From the NCBI RefSeq assembly GCF_001007875.1, contig NZ_CP011412.1:930001-994000 (forward strand): 64,000 nucleotides of DNA, given 5' to 3'. The notes under the pieces are model-generated. The model saw only the letters and a list, made by a program, of their open reading frames with translations, ran no database searches and was not told where the DNA came from. Of this stretch, positions 15,729 to 59,280 are shown piece by piece; position 1 is the stretch's first letter; every line of letters begins with the position of its first letter. The position numbers were made by a program, and so were the translations under genes. The DNA is from Sedimenticola thiotaurini. GTDB taxonomy: Bacteria > Pseudomonadota > Gammaproteobacteria > Chromatiales > Chromatiaceae.

Positions 15729-15954
15729 ATTATGATACTGGTAAGATGAAGTGCTTTGATCCTGCTTGGTCACTGTTAAATATAACATGCCTTCCGGTTC
15801 GTGCTGAGCCGTTCACGGTGGTTAACTCATGGAATAATCGCAGGGAGCCTGTGCAGATGGATGTGCACCAATCAGATAACAGGTCGCTTTTTTCATCCCC
15901 CACAACATACCCTATCCCTGATTGGCGTTGGCACAAACGGAACAAATCTTCACT

Positions 15955-18900
15955 ATGTCTAAACCGTTGACCAGGCCGCAACAGGTAGCGCCCCAGCTAC
16001 TGGTGTTCTTCCAGCGCCTGCTGGCTATCGGGATTTTGACCACCGTCACTGTTACGCTGGTGGATTTCCCCATCGCAGTCAACTGGCTGGCAGCCGGTTT
16101 TGTCCTCTATCTGCTACTGCTGTGGCGTTACCCCTGGCTCTGGTTGATTGTCCTGCCGACCCTGCTGCCGGTCCTCGACCTGACACCCGCCAGTGGGCGT
16201 ATCTTCTTTGGTGAATTTGATCTGCTGGTGCTGATCACGGTGGCCGCCGGCCTGATGAGGCGAGAAGCCTGGTTCACCCCGCTGCAACTCAACCGGAAAC
16301 GCTGGCTTCTCATACTCCTGCTGATTGTCTGGCAGTGTTACACCGCCCTGAAAGGGCTGCTACCTATTCAGCCGGTCGATGCCAATGCATTTACCAGTTA
16401 TTACAGCCACTACAACAGCCTGAGACTGGCAAAAGGTTTTTTCTGGGCACTACTTCTGCTGCCGTTGTTGGGGCAGGCTATTAATCGGGGCAACCCGGTC
16501 GTACGGCTGTTTATCGCCGGCGTGGTCGGTGGTCTGGCAACCGATCTGATGGCGATTCTCTGGGAAAGAGCACTGTTTTCCGGCATCCTCAACTTCTCCA
16601 AGCCCTACCGGGTAACCGGCCTGTTCTCCGGCATGACGACCGGTGGAGCGCCGTTGGATGCCCACCTGATCTTCTCCCTGCCGTTTGTTGGCGCGCTATT
16701 CCTGCTGTGGCGAAACCGCTTGATTCATCTGGCCGGTTTCTGTCTGCTGCTGTTTGCGCTCTACGGTCTGGCGGTCACCTTCAGTCGTGCCGATTATGCG
16801 GCGGTGATTGTGGCTGTTTTTACCGGCCTGGCGGCCTGGATGCTGATCAGCCGTTCTGCCCCTTCCAGCCATGCTGGCAGGGGCTGGTATCTACTCGGTA
16901 TCGTGGCGCTGGCGCTGCTGGTATCCACCCCATTTATCAGTGGCGAATTCATCAAACACCGCTTCAGCACGGTGAGCAGTGACCTGGCCGGACGTTTCCA
17001 ACACTGGAATTCGGCAATCGACATGATGGGGAAGGATAAAGAGAGTCAACTGTTTGGTATGGGCCGCGGAGCCTTTCCAAGGAGCTACTACTGGTCCCAT
17101 CCCGGTGATGACCTCCCCCCCACCATGTTGCATGCCCGGCAGGACAACAACAGTTTTCTGCGCATGGACAGGAGCAACGATAGCGGCGACCTGTTCCTGA
17201 CCCAACGCTTCGAAGTAGCGGAACCGGGGCCCTACCGTCTGTCCATCAGCCTGCGACCCAGAAACGACCAAGCTACCCGACTACTGGTGGAGATTTGTGA
17301 AAGGTTGATTTACCAGTCTTACAAGACCTGCCGCTGGATGGGTATCAATACCGGTTCCGATAGCAGCCAATGGATCAATTTCAATAAAACTTTCAGTGTA
17401 AGGAACCTGGGAGTAAAACAGTGGTACGGCTCACGCCCGGTGCAGATATCCATTCTGAACCGGGGACTCACCCAGGGAGTTGATATCGATGACGTACAGA
17501 TCATCACTCCCAGCGGCAAACAGCTACTACAGAACAGTACCTTTGATCAGGGCCTGGATCACTGGTTCTTCTATTCCGGTAACCATCTTGGCTGGCATAT
17601 CAAAAACATCTGGGTCGATACCTTCTTTGAAGGGGGGTGGATCGGTCTTCTTATCTTCACGTTACTAATTGTCTACAGCCTGCTGGTTTCCCTTGAGCGA
17701 CTGCGACACAGGGACAGTTTTCCCCTGCTCTATCTGCCCGCCCTTACCGGTTTGCTGGTGGTGGGGCTGTTTGACAGTATCCTGGACGAACCCCGGCTGA
17801 CGCTGCTGCTGTTCCTCTCCACCTGGATACTGCTGGCCAGCCGCACAACGGCACTTACCCTGCTTCCAGCCCAACAGCATCCCCCGGGAATGGCAAACAA
17901 GCTGCTGCGCCACTTCCGGCGGCTCCCGCTCCTATACCAGATTTCAGCTGTTATCGTGAGCACCCTGTTATTGCTCACCCTGGGTATCTGGGGAGCCACC
18001 CAATATACCGGCATGGGCACCCGGCAACTGGCCTTGCGCCTGCTGGACAAACTGGGCCAGCGGGATGGTTATCTGGTACAGGCTATCATGCCTGACAGCT
18101 ACCACAACGCACACCAACTGGTGGGGAACTTGAGACCGGCCCACCCCAGAATCCTCCTGCCGGAGCTCTCCAAATGGCAGGGGCACGGCATTTCCCAGGC
18201 CATAGAGCAGCGCCTTGCTCTCTACAGTAACTATGACAGAAAAAACTACCGCCCCTGCTCCAGCAACAGCCTGCCAGGCCTGACCAGCTGCTGGTTAAGT
18301 ACCGGCGATGCTGCCACCGCAGAAAAGATTATTCACGGGCTCAGAAGTGGCTATATGCAGGTGGCGCGAAATAACGAAAACTACGGAAATGTGTGGCAAT
18401 ACGCCTTCGCCTACGACTTTATTCATCTCTATCCCGGCTTGAAAGAGGATGACCGCCTGGCCATCGAGGACAGGATCCGCAGCGCGCTGCGGCACGCCCT
18501 GCTGTTACTGGAGGGGAACAGCTTGTCGCTCTGGCATGGCCGGACCACGCTCTCCTCTATCGCCTGGTTGGCAGCTGTAGTGCTGGACCCGACCAACCCT
18601 GACGATCTGCTCCTGATAACCCAGGCTCAGGCCCATTTCCTGGAAACCCTCAAAGCGGTGGCCATGACGGAAGCCTGGCCGGAGGGTTATAACTACTGGA
18701 TCAACAATCGGGGATTTCTCTTCACCCTGGCCGCCAACGCCTACCTGAACGGAGTGGAAGATCCGCAAAACCGCCAGCAAGTGATAGAAACCCTCAGGCG
18801 TGTGGGGTATTGGCATATCTACAACACCCGCCCCGACAACCGGGCCCATGGCCTGGGTGATGAAGGCCCCCGGGTCGATTTGAAAGATGAGACTCGACGG

Positions 18901-20349
18901 GTCATCGATCTGATCACCCAGGCAACAGAAGATCCGGCACTGGCCGCCTACTCCCGCTACCTGGGGGAACTCTATGGTTACGCCAGCTACTACCAGGGCT
19001 ATCGTTGGGGATTTCTGCTGTTCAATGACCCCACTATCACGCCGCTACCACAATCGACCAGGAAGACCCTGAGCTTCGCCAGGGATTATCTGCCCGGTGC
19101 CACGCTGTTTGGCAAAAACGCCATGAACACGGCCTATTTCCGCTCCGGCTGGTCGCCACAGGATACTTTTATCAGCTTCCGGGCAGGTGACAGCTTTACC
19201 CATCACGGCCACTACGATGCCGGCCATTTCACTCTGTTTAAAGGTGCCCCCCTGGCCAGCAACAGTGGCACCTATGGCAGATTTTTCAGTGAGCATAGGC
19301 TCAATTACTACCTGCGAACCGTGGCGAAGAACTCCCTGCTTGTGGTACGCCCTGAAGAGAAGGTAAAACCCAACCGGTTCTTTAAGGAAAACGTGGCCGG
19401 TGGCGGACAACGGATCACACTGCCCACCGGCAGTGCCATACGCAGTACCGGTCAATGGGCAGATCAGTTACACAACGGCCTGCATCTTGAGGGGGGGCAA
19501 CTGCTCGCCTATGCCGGCAACGACAGCCGTTATCACTACATCGCGGCGGACCTCACCGCCGCATATAACAATACCCAATACGACGATAACGGGCAGAACG
19601 GCAAAGTCACCGAAGCCACCCGGGAGTTGCTCTACCTGGTGAACACGGATCAGTTGATCATTCACGACAAGCTGGTCTCCACCGATCCCGACTATGCCAA
19701 GAAGTGGCTGTTGCACACCATTAATCGCCCCCGATTGGCAGATACACGGCTGTTGGCGGGAACGGAGGAGAACGGCATCCTGCAGAGTGGAGCCAGGCAG
19801 CTGCGGATAGCCAACGGCCCGGGCAGATTGCGGGTGGATACCCTCTATCCCAGGGAGAGCATCACCCGTCTGATAGGCGGCCCCGACTACCAGTACTATG
19901 TGGAAACCGATGGCGATGACAGCGAGCTGGATGGCTGGAACATGGTTGAAGGCGTAAATCGGAAACCCTGGTTTGAGGACGCCCTCTGGCGGGTGGAGAT
20001 CCAACCTGCCAAACCCCGTTCGGAAGATCATTTCCTGACCGTGCTGACTCCGAGTCTGGGGGAGTTTAAAGAGGTTGACCCGGAACGGCTTGAGACCGGC
20101 TCGGAGCGTATCTATGGAGCACGCACTCAGGGTAATCTGGTCCTTTTTGTGGACGGTCGGGAACCGCAGCAGGTATCCGTTGCGACAAAGCGCGGCGATG
20201 ACGCCCTCTACCTGGTCGGAATAACTCCCGGGACCCGGGTAACCCTGGTGCTCGATGGCGCGGAAACCGGTTATACCGCCGACGATGCCGGGATGGCGAT
20301 CATCCCTCTCAATGACACTGCTAGAGACAATATCCGGCTCAGCTGGTAA
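15955..20349 (+). CDS. Fusion: O-antigen ligase/polymerase-like membrane domain plus heparinase II/III-like lyase
   Basis: A 1464-residue protein that joins activities usually found in separate proteins. Residues about 20-390 hold many membrane helices with a Wzy/WaaL-like pattern (FSRADYAAVI). Residues about 400-540 are a soluble insert resembling a carbohydrate-binding beta-sandwich (DLFLTQRFEVAEPGPYRLSI, then NSTFDQGLDHWFF). More helices follow to about 680. From about 720 to the end comes a helical toroid and beta-sandwich as in heparinase II/III or alginate lyases, with THHGHYDAGHFTLF near 1085. The lyase should face the periplasm. It may trim or release the polymer that the ligase half builds. 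ATG at 15955 is preferred to TTG at 15922. No frameshift was needed. Confidence 0.85.
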   Translation: MSKPLTRPQQVAPQLLVFFQRLLAIGILTTVTVTLVDFPIAVNWLAAGFVLYLLLLWRYPWLWLIVLPTLLPVLDLTPASGRIFFGEFDLLVLITVAAGLMRREAWFTPLQLNRKRWLLILLLIVWQCYTALKGLLPIQPVDANAFTSYYSHYNSLRLAKGFFWALLLLPLLGQAINRGNPVVRLFIAGVVGGLATDLMAILWERALFSGILNFSKPYRVTGLFSGMTTGGAPLDAHLIFSLPFVGALFLLWRNRLIHLAGFCLLLFALYGLAVTFSRADYAAVIVAVFTGLAAWMLISRSAPSSHAGRGWYLLGIVALALLVSTPFISGEFIKHRFSTVSSDLAGRFQHWNSAIDMMGKDKESQLFGMGRGAFPRSYYWSHPGDDLPPTMLHARQDNNSFLRMDRSNDSGDLFLTQRFEVAEPGPYRLSISLRPRNDQATRLLVEICERLIYQSYKTCRWMGINTGSDSSQWINFNKTFSVRNLGVKQWYGSRPVQISILNRGLTQGVDIDDVQIITPSGKQLLQNSTFDQGLDHWFFYSGNHLGWHIKNIWVDTFFEGGWIGLLIFTLLIVYSLLVSLERLRHRDSFPLLYLPALTGLLVVGLFDSILDEPRLTLLLFLSTWILLASRTTALTLLPAQQHPPGMANKLLRHFRRLPLLYQISAVIVSTLLLLTLGIWGATQYTGMGTRQLALRLLDKLGQRDGYLVQAIMPDSYHNAHQLVGNLRPAHPRILLPELSKWQGHGISQAIEQRLALYSNYDRKNYRPCSSNSLPGLTSCWLSTGDAATAEKIIHGLRSGYMQVARNNENYGNVWQYAFAYDFIHLYPGLKEDDRLAIEDRIRSALRHALLLLEGNSLSLWHGRTTLSSIAWLAAVVLDPTNPDDLLLITQAQAHFLETLKAVAMTEAWPEGYNYWINNRGFLFTLAANAYLNGVEDPQNRQQVIETLRRVGYWHIYNTRPDNRAHGLGDEGPRVDLKDETRRVIDLITQATEDPALAAYSRYLGELYGYASYYQGYRWGFLLFNDPTITPLPQSTRKTLSFARDYLPGATLFGKNAMNTAYFRSGWSPQDTFISFRAGDSFTHHGHYDAGHFTLFKGAPLASNSGTYGRFFSEHRLNYYLRTVAKNSLLVVRPEEKVKPNRFFKENVAGGGQRITLPTGSAIRSTGQWADQLHNGLHLEGGQLLAYAGNDSRYHYIAADLTAAYNNTQYDDNGQNGKVTEATRELLYLVNTDQLIIHDKLVSTDPDYAKKWLLHTINRPRLADTRLLAGTEENGILQSGARQLRIANGPGRLRVDTLYPRESITRLIGGPDYQYYVETDGDDSELDGWNMVEGVNRKPWFEDALWRVEIQPAKPRSEDHFLTVLTPSLGEFKEVDPERLETGSERIYGARTQGNLVLFVDGREPQQVSVATKRGDDALYLVGITPGTRVTLVLDGAETGYTADDAGMAIIPLNDTARDNIRLSW

Positions 20350-20361
20350 TTCAGGCCTGGT

Positions 20362-21120
20362 TCACCGTTTCAGCAGTTCATGTACGTACTTGACCGGAAT
20401 GGCATAGCTGATGCCGGAGGGACGCTCCAGCAGGGTTTCTTTGGTATCTTTCACAAAGACACTGTTCAACACCCCCACAACCTTGCCCGATTGGGCATCG
20501 TAGACAGGACTGCCACTGTTGCCGGGATAGGCCGTGCCATCCAACTGGTACACCTCAAACCGATTGCGCATACGCATAATCTGCTTGGCTGTCAGGTCTT
20601 TGGAATTGTTTGAGGGTATAACGATGGGGGTGATGGCTGAAATAATGCCCCGATGGGTCACCGGATAAAGTCCCAGCACGGTACCGATGGGGAAACCGGT
20701 AAAAGCAATCTCCTCCCCTTCCCGGATTCTGCTCTCAGGTGCCAGGGACATAGCCGGTAAGGGGCCATTGCTGATCTCCAGCAGCACCAGATCGTGTTCC
20801 GGATCACTGTTCACGATCTTGGCCGGATGGACGGTGGCCTTACTGCCCCGCCCGCTGAATACTGCCAGGGTCTCCCGTTTGGCATGATCGATCAGTTCCG
20901 GCAATACATGATGATTCGTCACAATATGACGGCCATCTCCCACCACAAAGCCGGTGCCCCGAAACTGGGCCGATGGGCGGCGCAACGGCATCACTGTGCC
21001 CACCGAGACTATACTGGGCCGGATTCGATCAATAATATCAGGCAGGTCGGCGCTGTTTGCCCCATGGCAAAACAGGCCCAACAGGACGGCAGCGTAAAAA
21101 GCCAGGCCGTGTAATCGCAT
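20362..21120 (-). CDS. Exported trypsin-like serine protease (S1C/HtrA-like, no PDZ)
   Basis: A 252-residue secreted protease with a signal peptide (cleavage near residue 23, HGANSADLP). The triad is visible: His in TNHHVL (71), Asp in PEHDLVLLEI (110), Ser in GNSGSPVYD (202). No PDZ domain follows, so it is shorter than DegP/DegS. It converges with the ligase-lyase fusion, with 12 bases between stops. It may process or quality-check envelope proteins; a direct link to the polysaccharide is only positional. Confidence 0.87.
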   Translation of the reverse strand: MRLHGLAFYAAVLLGLFCHGANSADLPDIIDRIRPSIVSVGTVMPLRRPSAQFRGTGFVVGDGRHIVTNHHVLPELIDHAKRETLAVFSGRGSKATVHPAKIVNSDPEHDLVLLEISNGPLPAMSLAPESRIREGEEIAFTGFPIGTVLGLYPVTHRGIISAITPIVIPSNNSKDLTAKQIMRMRNRFEVYQLDGTAYPGNSGSPVYDAQSGKVVGVLNSVFVKDTKETLLERPSGISYAIPVKYVHELLKR

Positions 21121-21348: not shown

Positions 21349-21975
21349 ATGGATAACAACGTAGTCTGGCACCGACCCACCGTCACCCGTGACAGGCGAG
21401 CTCAGAACAATGGCCATAAAAGCGTCATTCTTTGGTTTACCGGTCTATCCGGGGCAGGAAAATCGACCATCGCCCATGCCCTGGAAGAGAGTCTCTACCA
21501 GCTCGGCGCAAAGACCTATGTGCTCGATGGTGACAACGTCAGACATGGCCTGTGCGGCGATCTGGGTTTCTCCGATAAGGATCGGAATGAAAATATACGA
21601 CGCATCGGTGAAGTCTCAAAGCTTTTCATCGATGCCGGGGTCATCGCCCTATGTGCCTTTATTTCCCCATTTCGCGCCGATCGGCAGCGGGCGCGTGAAC
21701 TGGTCGATGAAGGGGATTTTATTGAGATCCATGTGAAGTGTCCGCTGGAAGTGTGTGAGACACGCGACCCGAAAGGCCTCTACCAGAAAGCCCGGGCGGG
21801 CTTGATCAAGGGGTATACCGGTATATCGTCACCTTACGAGGAGCCGGAAAATCCCGAGATCGTCCTGGATACCAGCGTACAAAACATCAATGAATGCGTA
21901 GAACAGATTATTGATTATCTGACAAAAAAAGAGATTGTGGTCCCCGGTAATCGGAATAAATCGGTGAATGGATAA
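21349..21975 (+). CDS. cysC: Adenylyl-sulfate kinase (APS kinase)
   Basis: A 208-residue kinase that phosphorylates adenosine 5'-phosphosulfate to PAPS. P-loop GLSGAGKST at 32-40, then [10 protein letters not shown] and [19 protein letters not shown], and the [13 protein letters not shown] segment are all typical of CysC. AAGGA precedes the ATG. No cysN/cysD or reductase genes are adjacent. Instead a PAPS-type sulfotransferase lies 1.3 kb downstream, so PAPS made here probably serves polysaccharide sulfation rather than sulfate assimilation (inference). Confidence 0.95.
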
Positions 21976-23254: not shown

Positions 23255-24232
23255 TTACCTATTGGCGATGGATTGTTTGGCCGCCTGATACTTTTCCATT
23301 ACAAAACGGCCGATTTCGGATTGCCCGATAATGCCCACAATTTTTTCAGCAGTGTCAGAATCAATCGTGGTCTCCCACTTATCGATATTGGCGAGTGGAT
23401 TCTTCATGACCGAAAAGTAGCCCGACTCCCCATCCGTCCTGGAAAGCGTTGCAATAAACTGTTGCATCTGGCTATCAAAAGGGACTCCCATGAACTGACA
23501 AAGCGCCTCAACCCGGTCAGGCATGTTTACACACAGATCCTCGTATGAAATAAGCATATAGTTCGGGCTGTCCGAGAGTTCCCGGAAACTCTTGTCATTT
23601 TGTACCATCCAGATATAAGCGCTCTGCTCTTCAAACGTGGCGGTTGATATCGTCTCGATATCGATTGAAAAATTCCGCGCATTGGACATTTTAGATACCG
23701 AGTTTATGAACAGATCCTGCCCCATTTTATTCTGTTCGATACCCCGCAGTTGGGAGGCAATAATCGCGCCGGGATGCCTTACAATATGGATAAATTTCAT
23801 CTCGGGCAGAGCCTGTGCGAACATCGGCACCCTGCCCAGGGAGTTGACGGATTTTATTACAGTTGTGTAATTGTTATCCTTGGCTAAATCGGGAATCGGC
23901 AAATTCAGACCGGCTTTCTCCGCAAGGGTGGCTGCAGGAATAAGAAATCGACGCAACAGCGTGCCGGAGGGTTTTCGAAACCTTTTCTCAAACCAGGGTT
24001 TTTTTCCATTTACAAAAGCAGACCGATCATTGCGTAGTTGCTCCAGGTAACGGCGGGAAGCGTCTGCATACTCCTGATACTGCTCTGCTTCAGGAAGGAA
24101 GGGAATATCACTATTGGGTGAAGTCTTATCGGGCTCATGTCGATAGATAACCGAGCGGGAAGAGTCGATCAGTTTGGCCAGTAGTGTGGTGCCAGACCGG
24201 CCCGATCCATATGCAAAAATTATTCGATCCAT
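23255..24232 (-). CDS. PAPS-dependent sulfotransferase
   Basis: A 325-residue protein with the 5'-phosphosulfate loop YGSGRSGTTLLAKLI at the N-terminus and the 3'-phosphate motif FIHIVRHPGAIIASQLRG in the middle, as in bacterial carbohydrate sulfotransferases. It transfers sulfate from PAPS to a hydroxyl group. The nearby cysC supplies the donor. No signal peptide is seen, so it should act in the cytoplasm on nucleotide- or lipid-linked sugar. It is followed upstream, on the same strand, by the SGNH-like and MBOAT genes. Confidence 0.88.
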   Translation of the reverse strand: MDRIIFAYGSGRSGTTLLAKLIDSSRSVIYRHEPDKTSPNSDIPFLPEAEQYQEYADASRRYLEQLRNDRSAFVNGKKPWFEKRFRKPSGTLLRRFLIPAATLAEKAGLNLPIPDLAKDNNYTTVIKSVNSLGRVPMFAQALPEMKFIHIVRHPGAIIASQLRGIEQNKMGQDLFINSVSKMSNARNFSIDIETISTATFEEQSAYIWMVQNDKSFRELSDSPNYMLISYEDLCVNMPDRVEALCQFMGVPFDSQMQQFIATLSRTDGESGYFSVMKNPLANIDKWETTIDSDTAEKIVGIIGQSEIGRFVMEKYQAAKQSIANR

Positions 24233-24319: not shown

Positions 24320-25543
24320 TCATTTGACCTTGGTGGATATGTTACCAATTTTCAGCCGTTCAATCTTGAGTACGCTATCAATATTATTCGAATTCAACTT
24401 CACCCCCACCGGTGTTTCCAGGTTTTTTTGACACCATCCCGGCACCATGCTGGCCAGCATCAGACTGCCCACATTCTGCTTATAATGGGCCGGCTCCCAA
24501 AACCACTTCAGTTCATCCGCTGCTGTAGCTGAGGCAGGAGCGGGCTCCGAGTTATACGGGGTAATGATAGAGAAGTCCCATAGTGGAGCATGATGTTGAT
24601 CCGCAATCGCCAGCAATCGCAATTTCCACTGCTCGAACTGTTCCCATAACCCTTTGCTATGGATAGCCCGAAGGTACTCCACATGATAGGGATTAATAAA
24701 GAGATAAACCTGGGTTTTCTGTTTATCAACGCTATTCAACAGATACGCCAGACTCCTGAACTGCTTTGAACTGTTCCCGGCCTCCCCAAGAACAGATTGT
24801 CCCGGCCTTGAAAATCGCCTCTCAATCTCCCCCATCTTCTGCTGAAACAGGACCTGCTGCCCTTCATTCCGAATAATCGGTACATAATCTTTTGCCGGAT
24901 TGAAACCGTTCTCCAAACGGTTGGAACTGTATTGATTACCCTGCTGCAGGATCGTCATCAAGGAATCGGAGGTGGTATCCAGCGAGATCAGCGTCTCCAG
25001 GTAGGTTTTCAGGGTATTGACACGGTAATGCCGATTCTCCTCACCGGCGGCAGTAACCACCAAGTTGGATTCATAGGTCTGCTGTGCTGGTGGCCATTGT
25101 CCCGGTTCCGGAGCCTTGTGTCGGGTTGAAAGAAAGTCAGAAAAATCGACTCCCCAGAGAATCAGGCGGACATCACTGTTGTAAATTGCATGCTGTATCG
25201 ACCGCGCCTGCCGATAGACACCTACTCCAGGCAGGCCAAGATTGTAGACCGGCCTGAAACTATCCGGCCAACAGGCATGTGCCGGATCCATACCCATCTC
25301 CGGTCTTGAGTTTCCGGCAATAAGGGTTTTCGGTTGGTAGCGTCTCACTTGATAGGGTTTGCTTAAACGCAGATGGGTTGCCGCAGCAGGTTTTATTTTT
25401 GACAACCCTTCAACGCGGCTGGTTCCGAACAGCCCGTAGGGATCGATAAGATAGTTCAGGCCCCCAAAAGCCAGTATGAGCAGCAGAAACACAATGGAGA
25501 AACGCTTCAGATAACTGGAATGGGTTTTATTAATCATGTTCAA
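24320..25543 (-). CDS. SGNH/AlgJ-like membrane-anchored partner of the MBOAT acyltransferase
   Basis: A 407-residue protein with one N-terminal membrane helix (SIVFLLLILAFGGLNYLI), then a periplasmic domain. A GDS-like block IAGNSRPEMGMDP and a C-terminal EPAHYKQNVG motif fit SGNH-type hydrolase/acetyltransferase folds. It overlaps the MBOAT gene by four bases, so the two are co-translated. Proteins of this sort (as AlgJ/AlgX with AlgI) take an acyl group from the MBOAT and place it on the exported polymer. Family assignment rests mainly on motif and context, not on strong overall similarity. Confidence 0.7.
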   Translation of the reverse strand: MNMINKTHSSYLKRFSIVFLLLILAFGGLNYLIDPYGLFGTSRVEGLSKIKPAAATHLRLSKPYQVRRYQPKTLIAGNSRPEMGMDPAHACWPDSFRPVYNLGLPGVGVYRQARSIQHAIYNSDVRLILWGVDFSDFLSTRHKAPEPGQWPPAQQTYESNLVVTAAGEENRHYRVNTLKTYLETLISLDTTSDSLMTILQQGNQYSSNRLENGFNPAKDYVPIIRNEGQQVLFQQKMGEIERRFSRPGQSVLGEAGNSSKQFRSLAYLLNSVDKQKTQVYLFINPYHVEYLRAIHSKGLWEQFEQWKLRLLAIADQHHAPLWDFSIITPYNSEPAPASATAADELKWFWEPAHYKQNVGSLMLASMVPGWCQKNLETPVGVKLNSNNIDSVLKIERLKIGNISTKVK

Positions 25544-27117: not shown

Positions 27118-27287
27118 CTTTTCTTCCGTGATCAAATTTTTGAGAGGGTAGCATACCTGGAAAACCACCCTATAGTGCCGACAACTATTATTGTCCCAGC
27201 CAAGACATTACAATATCCCCCCAATATAGAGCAATGTGATCAAATCCATCAGAATACCGTTCAGCACAAAGGGTAAAAGAGACCGGG

Positions 27288-30159: not shown

Positions 30160-32466
30160 TTATCTGGAAGGCCTGTCCGGTAGCTGATTGGGCCCCAACC
30201 CAGCCGCTTTTCGACTGCTATAAAACCGGTTCCCATCCGACAGATCCGGCACATGGTCTTCCCCATCAAACTGGAATCGACCGGTCGATTCCACAATCCG
30301 GTTTCCGGTCACCACTATTTTTTCAATCGGTGCCCGCCAGGTAAAAAACCGGTTAAAACCATAATTAAAGGCGGGCTCATCTTTTGATTCGTCCCGGTCA
30401 AAGATAATCCAGTTATTAGTGATGGAGACATTGGAAGGCCTCACGCTACCACCGCAGTTTTTCGCTTCGGTACCCACACTGATCAGGTCGATATTGTCCG
30501 TCATTTCACCCTGCTGAAGAACGCTTTCGTGTACCGACAGATGCCCCCCGCAGGGAAAGTCAATCAGGCGCGAGTGGCGACCATCCAGTCCGGCAATCAC
30601 TGAATTGACGATCTCTGTCTCCGCCGCACGGCTCTTGAACAGGTGCCCCTTGCCGAAAGAGCGTCTGACTATGGAGTTTTTCATCACCACCTTGTCGATA
30701 TCACCGGCGTAAAAACCGTGTCCCAGGGTTCGTGATCGGTCATTAAGACCACTGTTCTGTATCAGGACGTTATTGAGTTCAATAACACCACCCCTGTTAT
30801 CTGTAATTATCCCGATCACGGTGTTGTTAATCGTGGAATTTTCTACCGTGAGATTAAACTTTTTACCCTCTGCCTTGATACCGGCACAATTTCCACCCAG
30901 GCAGTCAGCAGCTATTCCATCGGCGTTGAGATTCACTATTTTGACCTGGCATCCGTTACAGGAGACGTTTACAATCCCTTTTCGTTTGGCGACGCCACGG
31001 ATAGAGACACCCTTCAAATCCACTGTCATGGATCTGTTGATAAAAAGTCCCTGACCATAAATACCTGCCGGTACTTTCAGCACGCCGCCAGTCACGGTTT
31101 TTTTAACCAGCTCACCAAGATTGTGGGGGGCATAGTTAACCGGCTTCATATGTTTCGGGTGCTTGTATATCCACACACCGGTCACGTGGGATGATATACC
31201 CGCATACAGATCATAATTTTTCAGGTAAACCCACTTGCCATAGACCCGCGCATCGCCCTGCTGGGGCCCCTGTTTCATCCAATTATAGTGTCGCCAACCG
31301 GGGATTTCGGCATCGGGGTTGAACATAAATATATTCCAGCGACCATCCCATGAGACCAGTTCACCGTCCCGGTTTATTGCTATGGATTTGCCATGGGGAA
31401 TAATCTGCTTATAGGTATTTATGAGTCGGCCGGTAGAGGCATCAAACTGCAACAGCGATTTCCTCTGAATGGACCAGATCTGATTACGTTTCTCATCATA
31501 AGCTTTAAGTCCATCCCCCCAGTCCGCCTGCCCGGTCAAAGATTTAGCGCTGTTAATATCGCCGTTCAGCGGATCGTAGACGACGGTTCTGTTCTTTGAG
31601 CCAAACAGGATGCTGCCATCCTTCAATTCAGCAGATACCGGGTAACTCTGATGTACATTCTTCTGTTTCAGTTGCTCATAACTAAACACTTTTCGCCATG
31701 TCAGCGGTGCAAGTCCGTGCCGCTCGTCGGTTTCCGACGGATTGAATTCGTACCAACCAAATCCGACTCTTCTGCTACCACGGACCAATGGATCATTTTC
31801 ATACTTGTTTTCTTTATCCTCTAAACATGATCCATTAGCCGCACCATAGGTATAGAGAAACATGGTTCTGGTTTTTTTACTGAATATCAGCCCATCATAG
31901 GTATGGGAGCTGCCGGGTACCTTATCGGGATCGGGCATCCAGCAAAGCCGCCGCCAGGGCTTGTTCTTTCTCGCTTTGGCATCGAGCAGGACATAGAGTT
32001 GATTCAAAGGAGATGGGTCGGTCAATCGTTTCCATTTACCCTGTTTCAGATCGAACCGGTAAACTTCATTGCCACCATAATCCGCATGCCCTCCCCCAAA
32101 AAAATAGAGATACAGATTCTCTTCATCAAAAGCCGCACTGTTCCAGGCAGTCAGTATCGACTTCCCACCAGTTCTCATGCGGATTCTTTTATCCAGTTTT
32201 TCGGGCCACACAGAAGAGATTGATGGGTGTTTGTCATTAACCCTGATCTCGCACCAACCACCGGACTGTTTTTTCAGTTTCTCTGCACAATCATCCAGAT
32301 TTTTGCCCCTGATCGGTGCAGGCAGATTCAGTTCCGCTGCGGTTACCAGTTGTGACACCGCTAATAGAGAACAGATGAGCAGAACGGGAAGGCCGTGACT
32401 GACAATTTTCCCCAAAACACTGCTGAACTTCAGTCCATCCTTTCTGCCAAACACAGTTTTTCCCAT
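30160..32466 (-). CDS. Exported beta-propeller-like plus parallel beta-helix protein
   Basis: A 768-residue secreted protein. A signal peptide (about residues 20-45, LLICSLLAVSQLVTAAEL) is followed by a Kelch-like or propeller-like half with repeated G-G-H-x-D-Y and YDPLNG-type strands to about 450. A right-handed parallel beta-helix half follows, with repeated short strands (GVSIRGVAK, VKIVNLNADGI, NLTVENSTINN). Such helices bind or cleave polysaccharide as lyases or epimerases. GGAG before ATG at 32466 fixes the start; the frame extends to 32583. It separates the acyl-ligase/decarboxylase pair from the hydrolase/ACP pair. Catalytic residues are not identifiable by eye. Confidence 0.72.
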   Translation of the reverse strand: MGKTVFGRKDGLKFSSVLGKIVSHGLPVLLICSLLAVSQLVTAAELNLPAPIRGKNLDDCAEKLKKQSGGWCEIRVNDKHPSISSVWPEKLDKRIRMRTGGKSILTAWNSAAFDEENLYLYFFGGGHADYGGNEVYRFDLKQGKWKRLTDPSPLNQLYVLLDAKARKNKPWRRLCWMPDPDKVPGSSHTYDGLIFSKKTRTMFLYTYGAANGSCLEDKENKYENDPLVRGSRRVGFGWYEFNPSETDERHGLAPLTWRKVFSYEQLKQKNVHQSYPVSAELKDGSILFGSKNRTVVYDPLNGDINSAKSLTGQADWGDGLKAYDEKRNQIWSIQRKSLLQFDASTGRLINTYKQIIPHGKSIAINRDGELVSWDGRWNIFMFNPDAEIPGWRHYNWMKQGPQQGDARVYGKWVYLKNYDLYAGISSHVTGVWIYKHPKHMKPVNYAPHNLGELVKKTVTGGVLKVPAGIYGQGLFINRSMTVDLKGVSIRGVAKRKGIVNVSCNGCQVKIVNLNADGIAADCLGGNCAGIKAEGKKFNLTVENSTINNTVIGIITDNRGGVIELNNVLIQNSGLNDRSRTLGHGFYAGDIDKVVMKNSIVRRSFGKGHLFKSRAAETEIVNSVIAGLDGRHSRLIDFPCGGHLSVHESVLQQGEMTDNIDLISVGTEAKNCGGSVRPSNVSITNNWIIFDRDESKDEPAFNYGFNRFFTWRAPIEKIVVTGNRIVESTGRFQFDGEDHVPDLSDGNRFYSSRKAAGLGPNQLPDRPSR

Positions 32467-32809
32467 AACACACTCCATGTAATTACCGATTGTCCAAACC
32501 ACTATCTGACAACACAGTCTGGAATTCGCTGATATTGATGCTTGGATGAGATCACCCGACATTTTTCGAGTTCGAGGTTTCATGCCACCTGAAAAAACGG
32601 TGATTCAGATCATAACGAAATTTGCCGGCATCCATGCCTGGGCGATTGAGTCCGGTCGACCACCACACCTGAGTTCAGACAGTTTAACAGCGTGCAACCA
32701 ATCACTAAGCCTAGCATAGATATGTTGACCGGGTTGGTGCAGTGATACTGAGATGGCAGTGTGTTCTACGCCCTGATAGCACACTCGTTACTCGGTGTTG
32801 ATCCGCAAT
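32467..32809. other. Intergenic region between the beta-helix gene and the fused hydrolase gene
   Basis: About 340 bases, no supported gene. AGTGTG and CACACT near 32758-32788 could pair across a 16-base loop downstream of the hydrolase stop, with no clear U-run. The promoter of the beta-helix gene must lie here or be shared with the hydrolase operon. Confidence 0.3.
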
Positions 32810-43003: not shown

Positions 43004-44458
43004 ATGGCTTCTTTACGCAATTCCCTTTTCTGGTCGCTAGGCGAGAAACACCTTGGCCAGATCATCAGGCTAATCAGCGCCATGATCCTGGCTCGTCTCC
43101 TGACCCCAAAGGAGATCGGGATATTTTCCCTCTGTGCCGCGCTACTCGCAGTGGCCAGTATTTTTCGCGATTTTGGTGTCAGCGAGTACATCATTCAGGA
43201 AAAAAACCTCACTAAGGAAAAACTGAGCGGTGCCTATGCACTGACCACAATGACGGCCTGGCTGATGGCCCTGGGCCTTTTTTTCTCCCGTGATATGTTT
43301 GCCAGTTTCTACAACGAACCTGCGCTGATCGATGTACTGAACATTCTCTGTATCAACTTTGTCATTCTCCCCCTCGCATCACCGGGTTTTGCACTATTAA
43401 ATCGCGAGATGCAGTTCCGTAACATATTCGTTGTTCAATTCAGCAGTACCATTATTCACGCTGTGACCGCAGTCGCCCTGGCATTTTTGGGGTTTAGCTA
43501 CATGAGCCTGGCCTGGGCTTCACTGACCGGTATTGTGATCCAGACACTGCTGATTATGTACTACCGGCCACGGGACTCTCTGATCCTTCCCAATCCCCTG
43601 CAAATAGCCCATGTCTGGCGGTTCGGTATCATGTTCAGTTCCTCTCGTGCGATTGACTCCTTCAACAGAAACGTCCATGAATTTGTCATCGGCAGACAGT
43701 TTGGAATGGAGGCTTTGGGTATCTTCAGTCGAGCTCTGGGTTTGATCAACCTGTTCTGGAATAACGTAACCGCGGCGGTAACCAGGGTCGCCTCCCCGGC
43801 TTTTGCATCCACCTATCGTGATTCCGAAGAACAGCTGATTATCCTCTACCGCAAAGCGGTGGCTGTATTTACCGTTATCGCCTGGCCTTTTTTCAGCTTT
43901 GTCGCTTTGGATTCGGAGCGTATCATACTCCTGCTATTCGGTGATCAGTGGCTGGCCGCTGCCCCGCTTGCTTCCATTCTGGCAATATCAGCACTCATAT
44001 CGTCCGTATTCTCAATGGCTCCAAACGCACTTATCGCTATGGGCCATGTAAAGCGGAGACTCCAGATAAGCCTCTTGATTGCACCCGTTCATATCATCGG
44101 GATAGGGATCGCTTCGCTGTTTACCACCTGGACGGTTGCAGCGGTCTGGATATTCAGTTGGAGCGTGGCGCTAATGCTCTACAACTACCACCTTTCCGTT
44201 ACGCTTAAATTTACTTATATTGATCTGGTAAAAAGCACGCTGTGCAGTTTCAAGGTAACCCTGATCACCGTCCTCACACTGTTCGCGACGTCACAGCTCC
44301 TGGGGATGACGGGGCTTCATGACCTGCTATTGCTGCCACTCGAAGCATGCGCAGCAGCTCTGGCCTGGTTCGTATCTGTCAGGCTCTTGAAGCATCCTGT
44401 TCAGGAAGAGATCATGAATGTATATATTCAGTTCAGAAGTGCCAAGGGAGAGGCCTGA
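43004..44458 (+). CDS. Oligosaccharide flippase (Wzx-like, MOP superfamily)
   Basis: A 484-residue inner-membrane protein with about 12-14 helices and the N-terminal motif LFWSLGEKHLGQIIRLISAMILARLLTP-type region of MOP-family polysaccharide transporters. It should flip lipid-linked repeat units to the periplasm. Next come the TPR protein and asparagine-synthase-like protein on the same strand. A ribosome site before the ATG is not evident. Whether it serves the whole locus or only the plus-strand cassette cannot be told; no other flippase is in the window. Confidence 0.92.
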   Translation: MASLRNSLFWSLGEKHLGQIIRLISAMILARLLTPKEIGIFSLCAALLAVASIFRDFGVSEYIIQEKNLTKEKLSGAYALTTMTAWLMALGLFFSRDMFASFYNEPALIDVLNILCINFVILPLASPGFALLNREMQFRNIFVVQFSSTIIHAVTAVALAFLGFSYMSLAWASLTGIVIQTLLIMYYRPRDSLILPNPLQIAHVWRFGIMFSSSRAIDSFNRNVHEFVIGRQFGMEALGIFSRALGLINLFWNNVTAAVTRVASPAFASTYRDSEEQLIILYRKAVAVFTVIAWPFFSFVALDSERIILLLFGDQWLAAAPLASILAISALISSVFSMAPNALIAMGHVKRRLQISLLIAPVHIIGIGIASLFTTWTVAAVWIFSWSVALMLYNYHLSVTLKFTYIDLVKSTLCSFKVTLITVLTLFATSQLLGMTGLHDLLLLPLEACAAALAWFVSVRLLKHPVQEEIMNVYIQFRSAKGEA

Positions 44459-48089: not shown

Positions 48090-49403
48090 CTACCTGGTCA
48101 TGGACGGTGCTGTACGCGATGCATGCCGAACACCCGATTCTCTGTTCAATCCCTGCTCCTGTTTCAATTTATCCAACTGTGCTTCCGTTATTTTCTTAAC
48201 GATCAGAATAATGGCAAACAGATGCCAGGGAAAATCAAAGTAGGCAAGACTGAGAAATGCCCCGCCAAAGCAGTATGCAACCATACTGATCTTGAAATAA
48301 TAGGCGAAATCATAGGCCCATTTAAGCTCTTCTATCCCCCGTGTGTTCTTCAGTATCCAGACCCCGGTCCGCCATGCCAGTAAAAGGATTGTCACAAAGA
48401 GCAGCAGGCCGATCCATCCATGATCACCCAATACACCGAAGTAAATACTGTGTGCAGCGTGCACATCGTTGGGATTCGGAGCATAAATCTGGAACGTGGG
48501 TATTGACCAGGAGTTGAAGCCACCACCGGTTAAGCGGTCATTCGCCACATTGACACTGTACGTCCAGGCATTGAGTCGACCCATTGCAGAGGCATCTTCC
48601 TGGTAGTTCTGGATGGTATCGATGCGCTCATGCCACTGGTTGGGGAGAAAACTGAGTACAAGAACGCCCCCAATTGCCACCATAGCCAGAATAATTACTT
48701 TGTTTTTTGTTTTTAATATCAAGTAGAGCGACATAACTCCGATGGTTAAAAACGCTCCTCTTGAGTAAGAGGCGAATACAGAAAGCACACAAAGCAGAAA
48801 AGCGATCAACAAGCCACGCCGTAACCATACATTGGTTGCCTGTACCTTGAGATAGTAGATCAGGGGCAACAACATTAACAAAGCAACAGCCAGTTCGTTG
48901 TTATCCTCAATGAATGACCCAGGTGGCCCCCAGACTCTGAATGCACCACCGGTCAGTATGGTAAATATACCGCCTTTAACACCAAAAATACCGATAGAGC
49001 CCACAATCACCCACAGCAGTGCCATCACCTGTTCCTTGGTGTGAATCAGCATCAGGGTAAAAAAGATAATCAGCTGGATTTTCAGAACTTTGATCAATTG
49101 AGCAAGTGCATCGTCGGGGTAAAATGCAAACAGGCTCGTAACTCCCATCCAGAGCAGGAATAGTATCCAGAAGACAGTAAGTCCGGTTATTGGTATCGAT
49201 TTTTTCTCTTTACTGAAAAGTACTGAAATCAGCAAAACAAGCGCAACGATCTGGGCAAACGGAAAGTTATAGGCAAATCCCCAGCCAAAACGGTGGGGAT
49301 TCATATAGCTTAACCACGACCAGACCAAAACCCCGATATAAGCATTCCGCAGAATGAAGGGCAATGATCCGAATACTAGCAATGTGATAACAATATCGCG
49401 CAT
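48090..49403 (-). CDS. O-glycosylation ligase-like, exosortase A system-associated (TIGR03097-like)
   Basis: A 437-residue inner-membrane protein with about 11 helices. The start DIVITLLVFGSLPFILRNAY and WSWLSYMNPHRFGWGFAY match the XrtA-associated ligase family. A periplasmic loop with AMGRLNAWTYSVNVANDRLTGGG and HNLYFG-like HSIYFGVLGDHGWIG follows the Wzy/WaaL plan. It should join the polymer to an acceptor (lipid or PEP-CTERM protein) or polymerise it. Several smaller genes follow or precede in the operon; a 343-base gap separates it from the methyltransferase gene. Confidence 0.9.
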   Translation of the reverse strand: MRDIVITLLVFGSLPFILRNAYIGVLVWSWLSYMNPHRFGWGFAYNFPFAQIVALVLLISVLFSKEKKSIPITGLTVFWILFLLWMGVTSLFAFYPDDALAQLIKVLKIQLIIFFTLMLIHTKEQVMALLWVIVGSIGIFGVKGGIFTILTGGAFRVWGPPGSFIEDNNELAVALLMLLPLIYYLKVQATNVWLRRGLLIAFLLCVLSVFASYSRGAFLTIGVMSLYLILKTKNKVIILAMVAIGGVLVLSFLPNQWHERIDTIQNYQEDASAMGRLNAWTYSVNVANDRLTGGGFNSWSIPTFQIYAPNPNDVHAAHSIYFGVLGDHGWIGLLLFVTILLLAWRTGVWILKNTRGIEELKWAYDFAYYFKISMVAYCFGGAFLSLAYFDFPWHLFAIILIVKKITEAQLDKLKQEQGLNRESGVRHASRTAPSMTR

Positions 49404-56519: not shown

Positions 56520-58058
56520 CTAGTTACTGACCAGCAGATCCAGAGAGGTTTCCAACGCAGGAATCAGGTGGTCGAGAAATGCCTGTTCAGCTTGCCCAAT
56601 CTGGTTGGGTACTTCGTCCCGCGGAATGGCAATAACAATGCGGGCACTATCCTGCCTGCCGAAGGTCAGGCGGTAGAACGCTTCCAGCAGTTTTCCCCGA
56701 TAGCGACTGGCAGTATATTTATCGCCAATACGATACCAGGACAACACCTGGTAGGCGTGATCTCCACCCTTTATCGTAAACTGGTCAATGGGCAACGGCT
56801 CCCCATTGACCTGTATCGTCACTTTACTCTTTTGGGTAATGCGCCACTTCTTCTCATCCATGGCGAGCAATAGATTTTGACTATTGATCAGTTCCACACC
56901 CTTCTTTCGTTGGGCGTAGTATCCCACAGAGACCTCAACCCGTTCCGATCCATGCTGATACTGCCGATGAACAATCTCACTGGCACCCAGAAAATGGGGT
57001 AGCCAGGCCGAATCAGATACCGGCTCACCAACCCAGCCGGCAAATCCGTCCGGTAACTCCAGTTGTTGCTCCACAACCAGAGCCTGTCGATTATCCATGG
57101 TGTAAGCCAGTACGGGCCAGACCGACGCAGCCAACAGAATCATAATCAAAGCGGAGCGCGGTCTGCTGCTGTTGTGCAGTGAATGGGCAGGTTGATTATC
57201 CGCCTTTGCCGGCTGCTCGTGGGGATCCCGCCAGAACGCGCCAATGGAGAAAAGAATCAGCATAACCAGGCCAAAAAACAACCAGCCGTAGATCAGATGA
57301 TCCACCCCAGTGGCAATTTTCATATCGCTCATATGACCCAGCATGACGATGATGTACGCCCGCAAGCTGTTGGCGATTATCGGGACAATGGTGGCTGCGA
57401 TGATAAACAGGATCCGCTTGGTTAAACGGCTGTAAGTTAAATAGGCATACAAAGCGCCCAGTGTCACCGAGGCGATCAGGTAACGCACACCACTGCACGC
57501 CTCAACTACAGACCAATTACCGGAAGGAAGTGAAAAAAACAGCCCTTCCCGATAAACGGGAATACCGGTCAACTTGATCAGGTACACGGTTGCCGTTGCG
57601 GTGACCTCCATCAACGGCGCCACCAGATCCTCTCCCATCGGCACCGCGAAAAAGAGAAATGCCAGGGGGAATGCCAGCGCCCAGGTAACCCTGTTTCCCA
57701 GCAGGGTCCATATGGCAAATATGAGAATGGCAACCAGCGCCAGTTGCTGAACCACCAGAGCATCGGCAAGATAACCCGCCAGCCACAGAAAACCTCCACC
57801 CAGCAGCAGCACCAATACCCGGTATTCTGGCTGTGGAACCAGTCGCTGCAGGCTTGAGCGCTTTTCCCAGATCAGCCAGAGAGTAATCGGTACAATGATA
57901 AAACCGTGCGCAAAGGTTTCTGAACGGTACCAGATAGAGACCATTGACCAGGCCGTCTCGTAAAACAGACCCAGGATGGCGACAATCAACAAGACGGTCA
58001 TAACCAATACCGTAGGCCAACTGGACGTTCCAGAATACACTTCCCTTTGGGTGCTCAT
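56520..58058 (-). CDS. xrtA: Exosortase A with C-terminal EpsI domain
   Basis: A 512-residue inner-membrane transpeptidase-like protein. Residues about 15-290 are the exosortase core with the catalytic Cys in VVEACSGVRYL, Arg in ANSLRAYIIV and His in GVDHLIYGWLFFG. Residues about 310-512 are an EpsI-type periplasmic domain (FAGWVGEP, VGYYAQRKKG, HAYQVLSWYRI). XrtA cleaves PEP-CTERM proteins, such as that at 6290-7180, and probably joins them to a sorted surface. ATG at 58058 gives the family N-terminus (MSTQREVYS); the frame extends to 58106 into the upstream gene. Four bases separate it from the glycosyltransferase stop. Confidence 0.97.
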   Translation of the reverse strand: MSTQREVYSGTSSWPTVLVMTVLLIVAILGLFYETAWSMVSIWYRSETFAHGFIIVPITLWLIWEKRSSLQRLVPQPEYRVLVLLLGGGFLWLAGYLADALVVQQLALVAILIFAIWTLLGNRVTWALAFPLAFLFFAVPMGEDLVAPLMEVTATATVYLIKLTGIPVYREGLFFSLPSGNWSVVEACSGVRYLIASVTLGALYAYLTYSRLTKRILFIIAATIVPIIANSLRAYIIVMLGHMSDMKIATGVDHLIYGWLFFGLVMLILFSIGAFWRDPHEQPAKADNQPAHSLHNSSRPRSALIMILLAASVWPVLAYTMDNRQALVVEQQLELPDGFAGWVGEPVSDSAWLPHFLGASEIVHRQYQHGSERVEVSVGYYAQRKKGVELINSQNLLLAMDEKKWRITQKSKVTIQVNGEPLPIDQFTIKGGDHAYQVLSWYRIGDKYTASRYRGKLLEAFYRLTFGRQDSARIVIAIPRDEVPNQIGQAEQAFLDHLIPALETSLDLLVSN

Positions 58059-58062
58059 AGAC

Positions 58063-59280
58063 TCAAACAGTACTCCCTTTTTTAGCCTCCAGCCATTGAC
58101 ATACAATCGGCAGATTAGCCTCCCAACTGAAATCTTTTTTCACACGGGCGCGGGCATCCCTGCCCAGACCATCATAAGCGCCGGAGACCAGTCTTGGGAT
58201 ATAGGAGAGAATTTCTTTTGCACTGTTAGCCAGCAATAGCTCCTTGCCCGGCTCCGCATGGATGCCTTCATATCCCTGGTCACTGACGATCACCGGTTTC
58301 TCCATCGCCATCGCCTCAAGAACCTTGTTCTGAATACCCCGGGCAATTCGCATGGGCGCCACAGCGGCCCTGGCGAATTGGAGATAGGGCCGGATATCTT
58401 CCACCCGGCCGGTCACTTCGACCCGATCCAGCCGGGCCAGTTGCTTAACCGACTCACTGGGATTGCTACCGACAATATAAAAGCGTGCCTGGGGTACCAG
58501 TCGGGATATTTCTGGAAAAACCTCTTTGGCGAACCAGGCTACCGCATCAATATTCGGCCAGTAATCCATGGCGCCGGTAAATACCAGCACTTCATCACCT
58601 TCCTGATAGGGATTCACAAACTCCTTTGAAGGGGCAAAGTATTCCGTATCCACACCATTATTGTAATAGTCGATATTTTCCTGTTCAGAGGAGATGAGAT
58701 CCCGAAACAGGGCAGCCTCTGCGGACGAGACAAACAGGCTGGCGTCAAATACGCCGGCGAGAGATCGTTCATAGGCGAACAGTTTATCCGCCTCCCGGCG
58801 ATATACCCAACTCATGGGCCACTGCTTCTTCATGGCATACTGGCGCCACTTATCTGAATCGATATCGACAAAATCGATCACCCGGCGCTCCAGGCTGGCA
58901 AGGTGAGGCGTGACATACTGCGCCATGGCGGACGAATAGACTATGACCCGTGTTATCTGCTGCTCAGCCACTACCTCTTCAACCCACTGACCCATTTTCC
59001 GGTCGGCGTAATAGGGAACAGTCAAGGGCTCGCCCTGCAACAAGCCTTTTATGCTTTTGACGCGAGCCTTGCGGGGATTCAATGGAACAAAACAGCACCC
59101 ATCACACTCTGTTTCCAACCGCGACACATAGGTCCAATCGTGAGGGTCATCTATAAATGCGCCCAGGAACACCCGGTAGTGTTGGCTAAGATAGCGCAAC
59201 AGATGGTAAGAACGGATCTTATCCCCCTTGTTGGGGGGATAGGGAATCCGGTGAACCAGGTAGAGCAGTGCGGGTTGCAT
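58063..59280 (-). CDS. Glycosyltransferase, TIGR03087-like (XrtA-associated)
   Basis: A 405-residue GT-B enzyme. YLVHRIPYPPNKGDKIRSYH at the start is the hallmark of the TIGR03087/stp1 family found next to xrtA. RGIQNKVLEAMAMEKPVIVS is the sugar-binding site. It stands seven bases after the FemAB gene and four before xrtA, so all three are translated together. Probably acts early in the repeat unit; sugar unknown. Confidence 0.93.
   Translation of the reverse strand: MQPALLYLVHRIPYPPNKGDKIRSYHLLRYLSQHYRVFLGAFIDDPHDWTYVSRLETECDGCCFVPLNPRKARVKSIKGLLQGEPLTVPYYADRKMGQWVEEVVAEQQITRVIVYSSAMAQYVTPHLASLERRVIDFVDIDSDKWRQYAMKKQWPMSWVYRREADKLFAYERSLAGVFDASLFVSSAEAALFRDLISSEQENIDYYNNGVDTEYFAPSKEFVNPYQEGDEVLVFTGAMDYWPNIDAVAWFAKEVFPEISRLVPQARFYIVGSNPSESVKQLARLDRVEVTGRVEDIRPYLQFARAAVAPMRIARGIQNKVLEAMAMEKPVIVSDQGYEGIHAEPGKELLLANSAKEILSYIPRLVSGAYDGLGRDARARVKKDFSWEANLPIVCQWLEAKKGSTV

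Follow-up and report, generated by a model that had tools for sequence, protein, structure and literature searches.

A Wzy_C-family membrane protein joined to a heparinase II-like lyase in an exosortase A exopolysaccharide locus of Sedimenticola thiotaurini

In Wzy-type pathways, the release and length-setting of secreted polymers are poorly understood. One precedent for a degrading enzyme with a role in synthesis is the inner-membrane-associated PslG of Pseudomonas aeruginosa. Sections of one report describe its activity and its location as important for biosynthesis of the organism's own exopolysaccharide, and note that an earlier PslG study disagreed (PMC6813494); part of a further paper gives the same precedent of a membrane-held degrading enzyme with a biosynthetic role (PMC9075953). 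Fusions of VanZ, of the lipocone superfamily, with exopolysaccharide genes are also reported in passages of PMC12419801. Here, we describe a gene that joins a membrane protein of the Wzy_C/O-antigen ligase superfamily to a polysaccharide lyase in a single reading frame. It occupies 15955..20349 on the forward strand of a stretch of 64,000 nucleotides (hereafter, the window) from Sedimenticola thiotaurini SIP-G1, a salt-marsh sulfur bacterium.

The fusion differs from each of the described systems. PslG is a glycoside hydrolase and not a lyase, is encoded by a separate gene, and is a functional precedent only. In other genomes, VanZ is fused to relatives of the N-terminal half of our protein (N-half) and, separately, to distant lyases, whereas hmmscan found no VanZ match in the fusion protein of the window. 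The N-half shares the membrane plan and an invariant Arg and His with the Wzy_C superfamily (PF04932, including TIGR03097), but has in addition a large insert resembling a carbohydrate-binding module (CBM) in a predicted periplasmic loop, and a C-terminal enzyme domain. Fold and catalytic residues of the lyase are common to heparinase II and to alginate lyases of the Atu3025 and Alg17c kinds, which we take to be families PL21, PL15 and PL17, respectively; unlike these, the fused lyase lies in a biosynthetic locus, is predicted to be membrane-tethered and is joined to a Wzy_C protein. Each part is already known; the interest of the Wzy_C-lyase fusion lies in its recurrence and in the exchange of its head. 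An initial annotation of this DNA had cautioned that the fusion might be already described; we found no such description in the literature searched, which covered sources other than subscription journals and preprints. In a word-start search, the terms 'lyase', 'heparin' and 'exosortase' were absent from the main text of PMC12419801.

The frame runs uninterrupted for 1464 residues from an ATG at 15955 to a stop at 20349, exactly as the initial annotation had it, with a TTG at 15922 as a possible longer start. That annotation had also raised the concern that a stop missed between residues 690 and 720 could conceal two genes. This is very unlikely because the SIP-G1 genome (a chromosome of 3,928,944 and a plasmid of 33,340 bases; 3,962,284 in total, in 2 contigs) was closed with PacBio data at 294x chromosome coverage and 100% consensus concordance (PMC4472907). 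The orthologue in S. selenatireducens BK-1 is likewise 1464 aa long and open over the same length, and on this ground, together with the closed genome, we reject the reading as two separate genes. In a codon comparison of the two species, the proportion of nonsynonymous differences (pN) was 0.19 in the first membrane part, 0.14 in the insert and 0.19 in the lyase, while that of synonymous differences (pS) was near saturation (0.71-0.86); in the catalytic part of the lyase, pN was 0.11 and pS 0.82. Judged by these values, both halves are under constraint. The fast-evolving regions are the linker (segment 636-660, 44% identity to BK-1) and the following anchor (40%), where the frame is nonetheless open.

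The C-terminal part (aa 690-1464; 18022..20346) is identified as a heparinase II-like lyase by Pfam, NCBIfam, profile, model and fold. It matched PF07940 with 27.1 bits (cut-off 24) and heparinase II in a profile search with 2.2e-40. Its model, with a mean predicted local distance difference test score (pLDDT) of 87.6, combines a helical toroid with a beta-sandwich, and the best Foldseek match was heparinase II (2fut_A; E 1.9e-36, TM 0.68/0.73), followed by exoHep, Atu3025 and Alg17c-type lyases. The HepB equivalog NF045571 gave 103.6 bits, far under its cut-off of 600, and the lyase is therefore a relative of heparinase II and not heparinase II itself. In HMMER alignments, for which the Atu3025 residue numbers were counted by hand, H861 (18535..18537) and Y914 (18694..18696) align with H311 and Y365 of alginate lyase Atu3025, whose roles we presume to be catalytic. 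H1084 (19204..19206) aligns, in profile and HMMER alignments, with H531 of Atu3025 and with the first motif His of heparinase II. All three residues are kept in 36/36 aligned rows, which comprise the window and 35 of the 40 lyase loci of the survey described below (L074, L077, L079, L080 and L084 are omitted). Titles of solved structures name mutated residues H531A (3afl) and, for heparinase II, H202 and Y257 (3e7j).

The N-half has the features of a Wzy_C membrane module. Hydropathy, the AlphaFold model and loop charges predict 11+3+1 membrane helices, with cytoplasmic loops that are mostly basic. The first 11 helices (aa 14-328; 15994..16938) overlap the PF04932 match, which covers about residues 264-383 and scored 38.8 bits (cut-off 31.7) in the genome search; PF04932 was not listed in an hmmscan of the fusion protein at E up to 1. 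By hmmscan the homologue L009 passes (34.2 bits), and L018, L021 and L062 fall below the cut-off. A 12-row N-half profile matched the TIGR03097 ligase alignment with a probability of 90% over 78 columns, and retrieved frames of ~400-510 residues, the size of ordinary ligases (E 7e-8 to 8e-4). R278 (16786-16788) and H548 (17596..17598) are invariant in 12/12 rows; their roles are assigned by analogy, and we take H548 to be the candidate catalytic His from its likeness to WaaL. The model of this half is of moderate quality (mean pLDDT 75.3).

Between the first helices and H548 lies the insert (about aa 385-543; 17107..17583), a CBM4/CBM16-like beta-sandwich by profile, Foldseek and model strands, which is predicted to be located in the periplasm. 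Its profile matched the CBM of a family 10 xylanase (4mgq, 6.6e-6). In Foldseek, chains of CBM4, 4mgq and CBM16 took the first four places without reaching an E below 0.001 (1.9e-3 to 1.0e-2), and behind them came more CBMs and various other beta-sandwich proteins; hmmscan of the fusion protein gave no Pfam CBM match. Three more helices (aa 552-628; 17608..17838) bring the Wzy_C half to about 14 predicted helices. Then come a basic, poorly conserved linker, predicted to be cytoplasmic (aa 629-658, 17839..17928; 5 K/R and 0 D/E among 30 aa), and a fifteenth helix (aa 659-682; 17929..18000) that leads into the lyase and would place it on the periplasmic side. This helix sits where unfused lyases often carry a hydrophobic N-terminal stretch: we saw such an anchor-like stretch in 22/30 of them, a set in which L039/L052 are duplicates and one frame is truncated at a contig end. 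With the predicted end of the N-half on the cytoplasmic side and an anchor-like segment at the start of many unfused lyases, the fusion is topologically simple. The domain plan of the initial annotation, a Wzy/WaaL-type membrane protein with a sugar-binding-like soluble insert and a heparinase II/III-type lyase in the periplasm, thus agrees with our analysis, with the Foldseek agreement for the insert being weak and with both the membrane plan and the side of the lyase as predictions.

The same fusion recurs in other genomes, as a survey called for by the initial annotation revealed. With the window's own genome included here and in the N-half search, a search with the whole protein gave some match in 7/55 relatives, 42/210 family genomes and 31/369 class genomes. 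The N-half profile matched in 48/210 order genomes and 15/398 phylum genomes, several of these matches being ordinary ligases. As a baseline, PF07940 was found in 164/398 phylum genomes, and among the matches listed at least 3 frames exceeded 1000 aa. A scan of named genomes yielded 40 lyase loci, 6 of them fused to an N-half: S. selenatireducens, Thiocystis violacea, Thiorhodococcus mannitoliphagus, Allochromatium palmeri, and metagenome-assembled genomes (MAGs) of Thiobacillus and Motiliproteus. With the window, G132 and G225 (in which the lyase is cut near a contig end), nine genomes carry the fusion, corresponding to 9/57 N-half frames. A unique accident is thereby ruled out. Three further N-half frames end in a beta-helix (L107, L196, L177), one in a soluble head C (L106) and two in membrane tails (L162, and L160 with VanZ in front). 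Since the 57 frames were partly collected via the lyase scan, these category counts are not frequencies.

Unfused parts also occur side by side. On one strand of each of two Halieaceae MAGs we found a trypsin-like protease, N-half and lyase (L080; last gap 45 nt, lyase cut by the contig end) and a protease, lyase and N-half (L057; last gap 9 nt). In L180 and L194 the gene ahead of the N-half encodes a beta-helix, with gaps of 6 and 128 nt, respectively; all four gaps were measured to the first possible start codon. In L080, L057 and L180 the unfused neighbours share a reading frame, and one stop codon is all that separates the stop-to-stop frames. In six frames of ~1180-1260 aa (L103:2178-5729, L104:2905-6468, two in tandem in L105, L199 and L200), VanZ is fused to a distant heparinase II/III-type lyase, and for 5/6 a gene for a trypsin-like protease is adjacent or at one gene's distance. 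With the N-half-VanZ and N-half-lyase fusions, N-half, VanZ and lyase are therefore joined in all three pairs.

The beta-helix heads are of two types, both closest to alginate lyases among solved structures. The head of L019 (the same gene is in L177) matched PF14592, Chondroitinase B, with 25.2 bits (cut-off 24), and its best solved relative was the poly-mannuronate lyase 7o79 (3.2e-5). The other type was represented by a seven-row alignment that includes part of a stand-alone Kelch and beta-helix protein encoded in the window (30160..32583, reverse strand), a relative of the beta-helix heads fused to N-halves elsewhere. Positions with H, K, S and R are invariant in this alignment, for which BcAlyPL6 was the best match among solved structures (2.6e-6, the sum of weak stretches); with the L018 beta-helix alone, no lyase was found in the PDB. 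From these sequence matches, the beta-helix heads would fit a lyase or an epimerase. Head C (L106:6398-7477, about 360 aa) gave nothing above chance in the PDB or Pfam and, among 340 genomes, was found only in its own genome, together with a second partial match, and as one weak match elsewhere. The copy in L172 (G059) has a broken N-half and an open beta-helix end, possibly through an assembly error.

Phylogenetic tests argue against a single origin followed by simple inheritance. Fusions as one clade were rejected both on the lyase tree (37 rows, p 9.3e-5) and on the N-half tree (57 rows, p 6.6e-6), which rules out a single old fusion inherited without loss and implies repeated gain or repeated loss. 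The lyase tree was derived from a 48-row set by omitting L045, L077, L081, L083, L084 and the six VanZ-lyase frames, and the N-half tree omits G182, G510, G105 and the broken G059 copy; the truncated G225 lyase is in neither the lyase alignment (A3) nor the lyase tree. On the lyase tree, Sedimenticola and Motiliproteus as one clade were not rejected (p 0.147), and Sedimenticola, Chromatiaceae and Thiobacillus as one clade were (p 0.021). On the N-half tree, a clade of Sedimenticola, G225 and Motiliproteus was rejected (p 5.7e-39). In Motiliproteus, the lyase clusters with unfused lyases of Methylomonas (100/97) and the N-half, through a weak join (94/25), with the beta-helix fusions. From the trees, repeated gain of the fusion is likely, and gain with repeated loss may also account for the pattern.

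The fusion belongs to an exopolysaccharide locus of the exosortase A (XrtA) kind, which carries the XrtA/PEP-CTERM gene set. The window encodes exosortase A and its associated glycosyltransferases, amidotransferase, FemAB, deacetylases, O-ligase and hydrolases, as well as a Wzx-like flippase, an adenylylsulfate kinase and a sulfotransferase; a chain-length determinant, a tyrosine kinase and an export protein lie just outside. The genome contains three Wzy_C proteins above the cut-off, two of them in this locus. The initial annotation had called the fusion a self-contained polymerase and trimmer. "Self-contained" is too strong, because the locus and its edge hold these other assembly and export genes and a second Wzy_C protein. 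Among the 40 lyase loci, 26 have an XrtA marker, 7 of these by the hydrolase pair only.

With moderate confidence, we assign the fusion to the XrtA exopolysaccharide pathway, as a Wzy_C-family enzyme of the inner membrane equipped with a polysaccharide-cutting head of its own. The Wzy_C half would join lipid-linked repeat units, or transfer a chain; the CBM-like insert would hold the nascent chain, and the tethered lyase would cleave this same emerging chain at a uronate linkage. If the chain grows at its lipid-linked end, a cut would free the distal polymer and leave a lipid-linked stub with an unsaturated tip, which could be extended again, amounting to cut-and-release or to trimming. Recurrent fusion and adjacency, and the replacement of the lyase by beta-helix heads, favour a working unit over an accident. 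As the joining appears to be repeated and some relatives have an alternative cutter-like part, our data suggest that cutting is part of making the polymer. More tentatively, and as a possibility that we hold with some doubt, these proteins could form a distinct enzyme class, in which a Wzy_C/CBM module is combined with exchangeable membrane-tethered cutting heads, and cutting in cis is the step of chain release that leaves the lipid-linked stub for regrowth. The heads would then be of unrelated folds, to judge by their closest matches a heparinase-II-like toroid and an alginate-lyase-like beta-helix.

Several observations weigh against this reading of a polymerase-type enzyme with a cutting head. 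The best 50 Foldseek matches of the N-half model contain no WaaL, and a chain-length determinant is already present at the edge of the locus. Of the N-half frames, 23/57 have VanZ in front and 19/57 stand alone (including a broken copy in G001), and for most of these no lyase or beta-helix gene was seen within 3 kb with the seeds used. No XrtA marker was seen at 14/40 lyase loci, some of which lie on short stretches. In the stretch of S. selenatireducens examined, the adenylylsulfate kinase and sulfotransferase are not beside the fusion. In Sedimenticola G001 (L205), the lyase is broken by stops and frame changes and the N-half frame is intact; if this break is not an assembly error, which it could be, the lyase is dispensable in that genome.

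The same evidence bears on three other explanations. The N-half could be a ligase, with TIGR03097 making the chain and the fusion cutting it and transferring or anchoring it to a cell-surface protein or lipid. The presence of two Wzy_C proteins in this locus, of three in the genome, speaks for such a division of labour, as do the loci of Colwellia, Thalassotalea and Vibrio (L069-L073), where an unfused lyase follows the TIGR03097 O-ligase and a deacetylase and no N-half was found within the stretch examined. (A beta-helix gene akin to the L019 head comes after the lyase in L069-L073.) VanZ, which is fused to many N-halves, is moreover tied to WaaL-like enzymes and to possible terminal release in parts of PMC12419801. 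However, NCBIfam calls TIGR03097 itself a putative O-glycosylation ligase, and Wzy and WaaL are not separable by sequence alone; overall, we consider this explanation rather unlikely.

We give still less weight to the idea that the lyase is there to remove stalled chains from the periplasm and has no influence on what is exported. Clearing roles have been assigned to periplasmic lyases encoded in other exopolysaccharide operons, such as AlgL, and the broken lyase beside an intact N-half in G001 is in line with this; yet clearance requires no covalent link to a polymerase, whereas the fusions do not form one clade, and the N-half is joined to beta-helix heads too. Clearance seems improbable to us. 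Finally, the fused domain might have ceased to be a lyase and only bind or guide the chain. To our knowledge, no activity has been measured for its close relatives, which leaves room for this view, but the catalytic residues kept in every aligned row and the low pN of the catalytic part make it very improbable.

The neighbourhood of the fusion provides further context. Directly downstream, on the reverse strand, is a gene for a trypsin-like protease (20362..21120; PF13365, 96.8 bits), a recurrent neighbour found within 3 kb of 13/57 N-half frames and in 8/40 lyase loci; the recurrent protease has no PDZ match, and it might process the fusion protein. It is followed by the adenylylsulfate kinase (21349..21975, forward; 326 bits, cut-off 163) and the sulfotransferase (23255..24232, reverse; PF13469, 58.7 bits, cut-off 27). 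At 24320-27168 are a DltB-like MBOAT protein and a 407-aa partner, a pair that recurs in L077, L083 and L038 and suggests an acylated polymer. Exosortase A-associated hydrolases 2 and 1 (TIGR03101, TIGR03100) form one 576-aa frame at 32810-34540, and are two adjoining frames of ~300 aa each in several related loci. The Wzx-like flippase is at 43004..44458 (forward; 182.7 bits with the MOP flippase model, below its cut-off of 273), the canonical exosortase A-associated O-ligase TIGR03097, the second Wzy_C protein of the locus, at 48090..49403 (reverse; 514 bits, cut-off 188), and exosortase A with its EpsI domain at 56520..58106 (reverse; 353.8 bits, cut-off 208). Several neighbours of the fusion are common to S. 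selenatireducens and the window, namely PrsT, the trypsin-like protease, a glycosyltransferase and an acyl-CoA ligase/decarboxylase pair. In G225, a nucleotide-sugar dehydrogenase gene is divergent to the fusion; its best profile is UDP-glucose 6-dehydrogenase, below that model's cut-off, and it is a possible source of the uronate. The sole dehydrogenase above the Pfam cut-off in the SIP-G1 genome sits outside the window.

The lyase has been repeatedly joined to, or lost from, a Wzy_C protein and swapped for another lyase-like fold, and our preferred reading, of a Wzy_C enzyme with its own cutting head, therefore makes a direct prediction about chain ends and chain length. If it is true, unsaturated uronate tips and free reducing ends would be expected on secreted chains, and a lyase point mutant would still synthesise polymer, but of altered chain length. 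The fusion would also offer a handle on the exosortase A polymer itself, in the form of a lyase that evolution may have adapted to this polymer.

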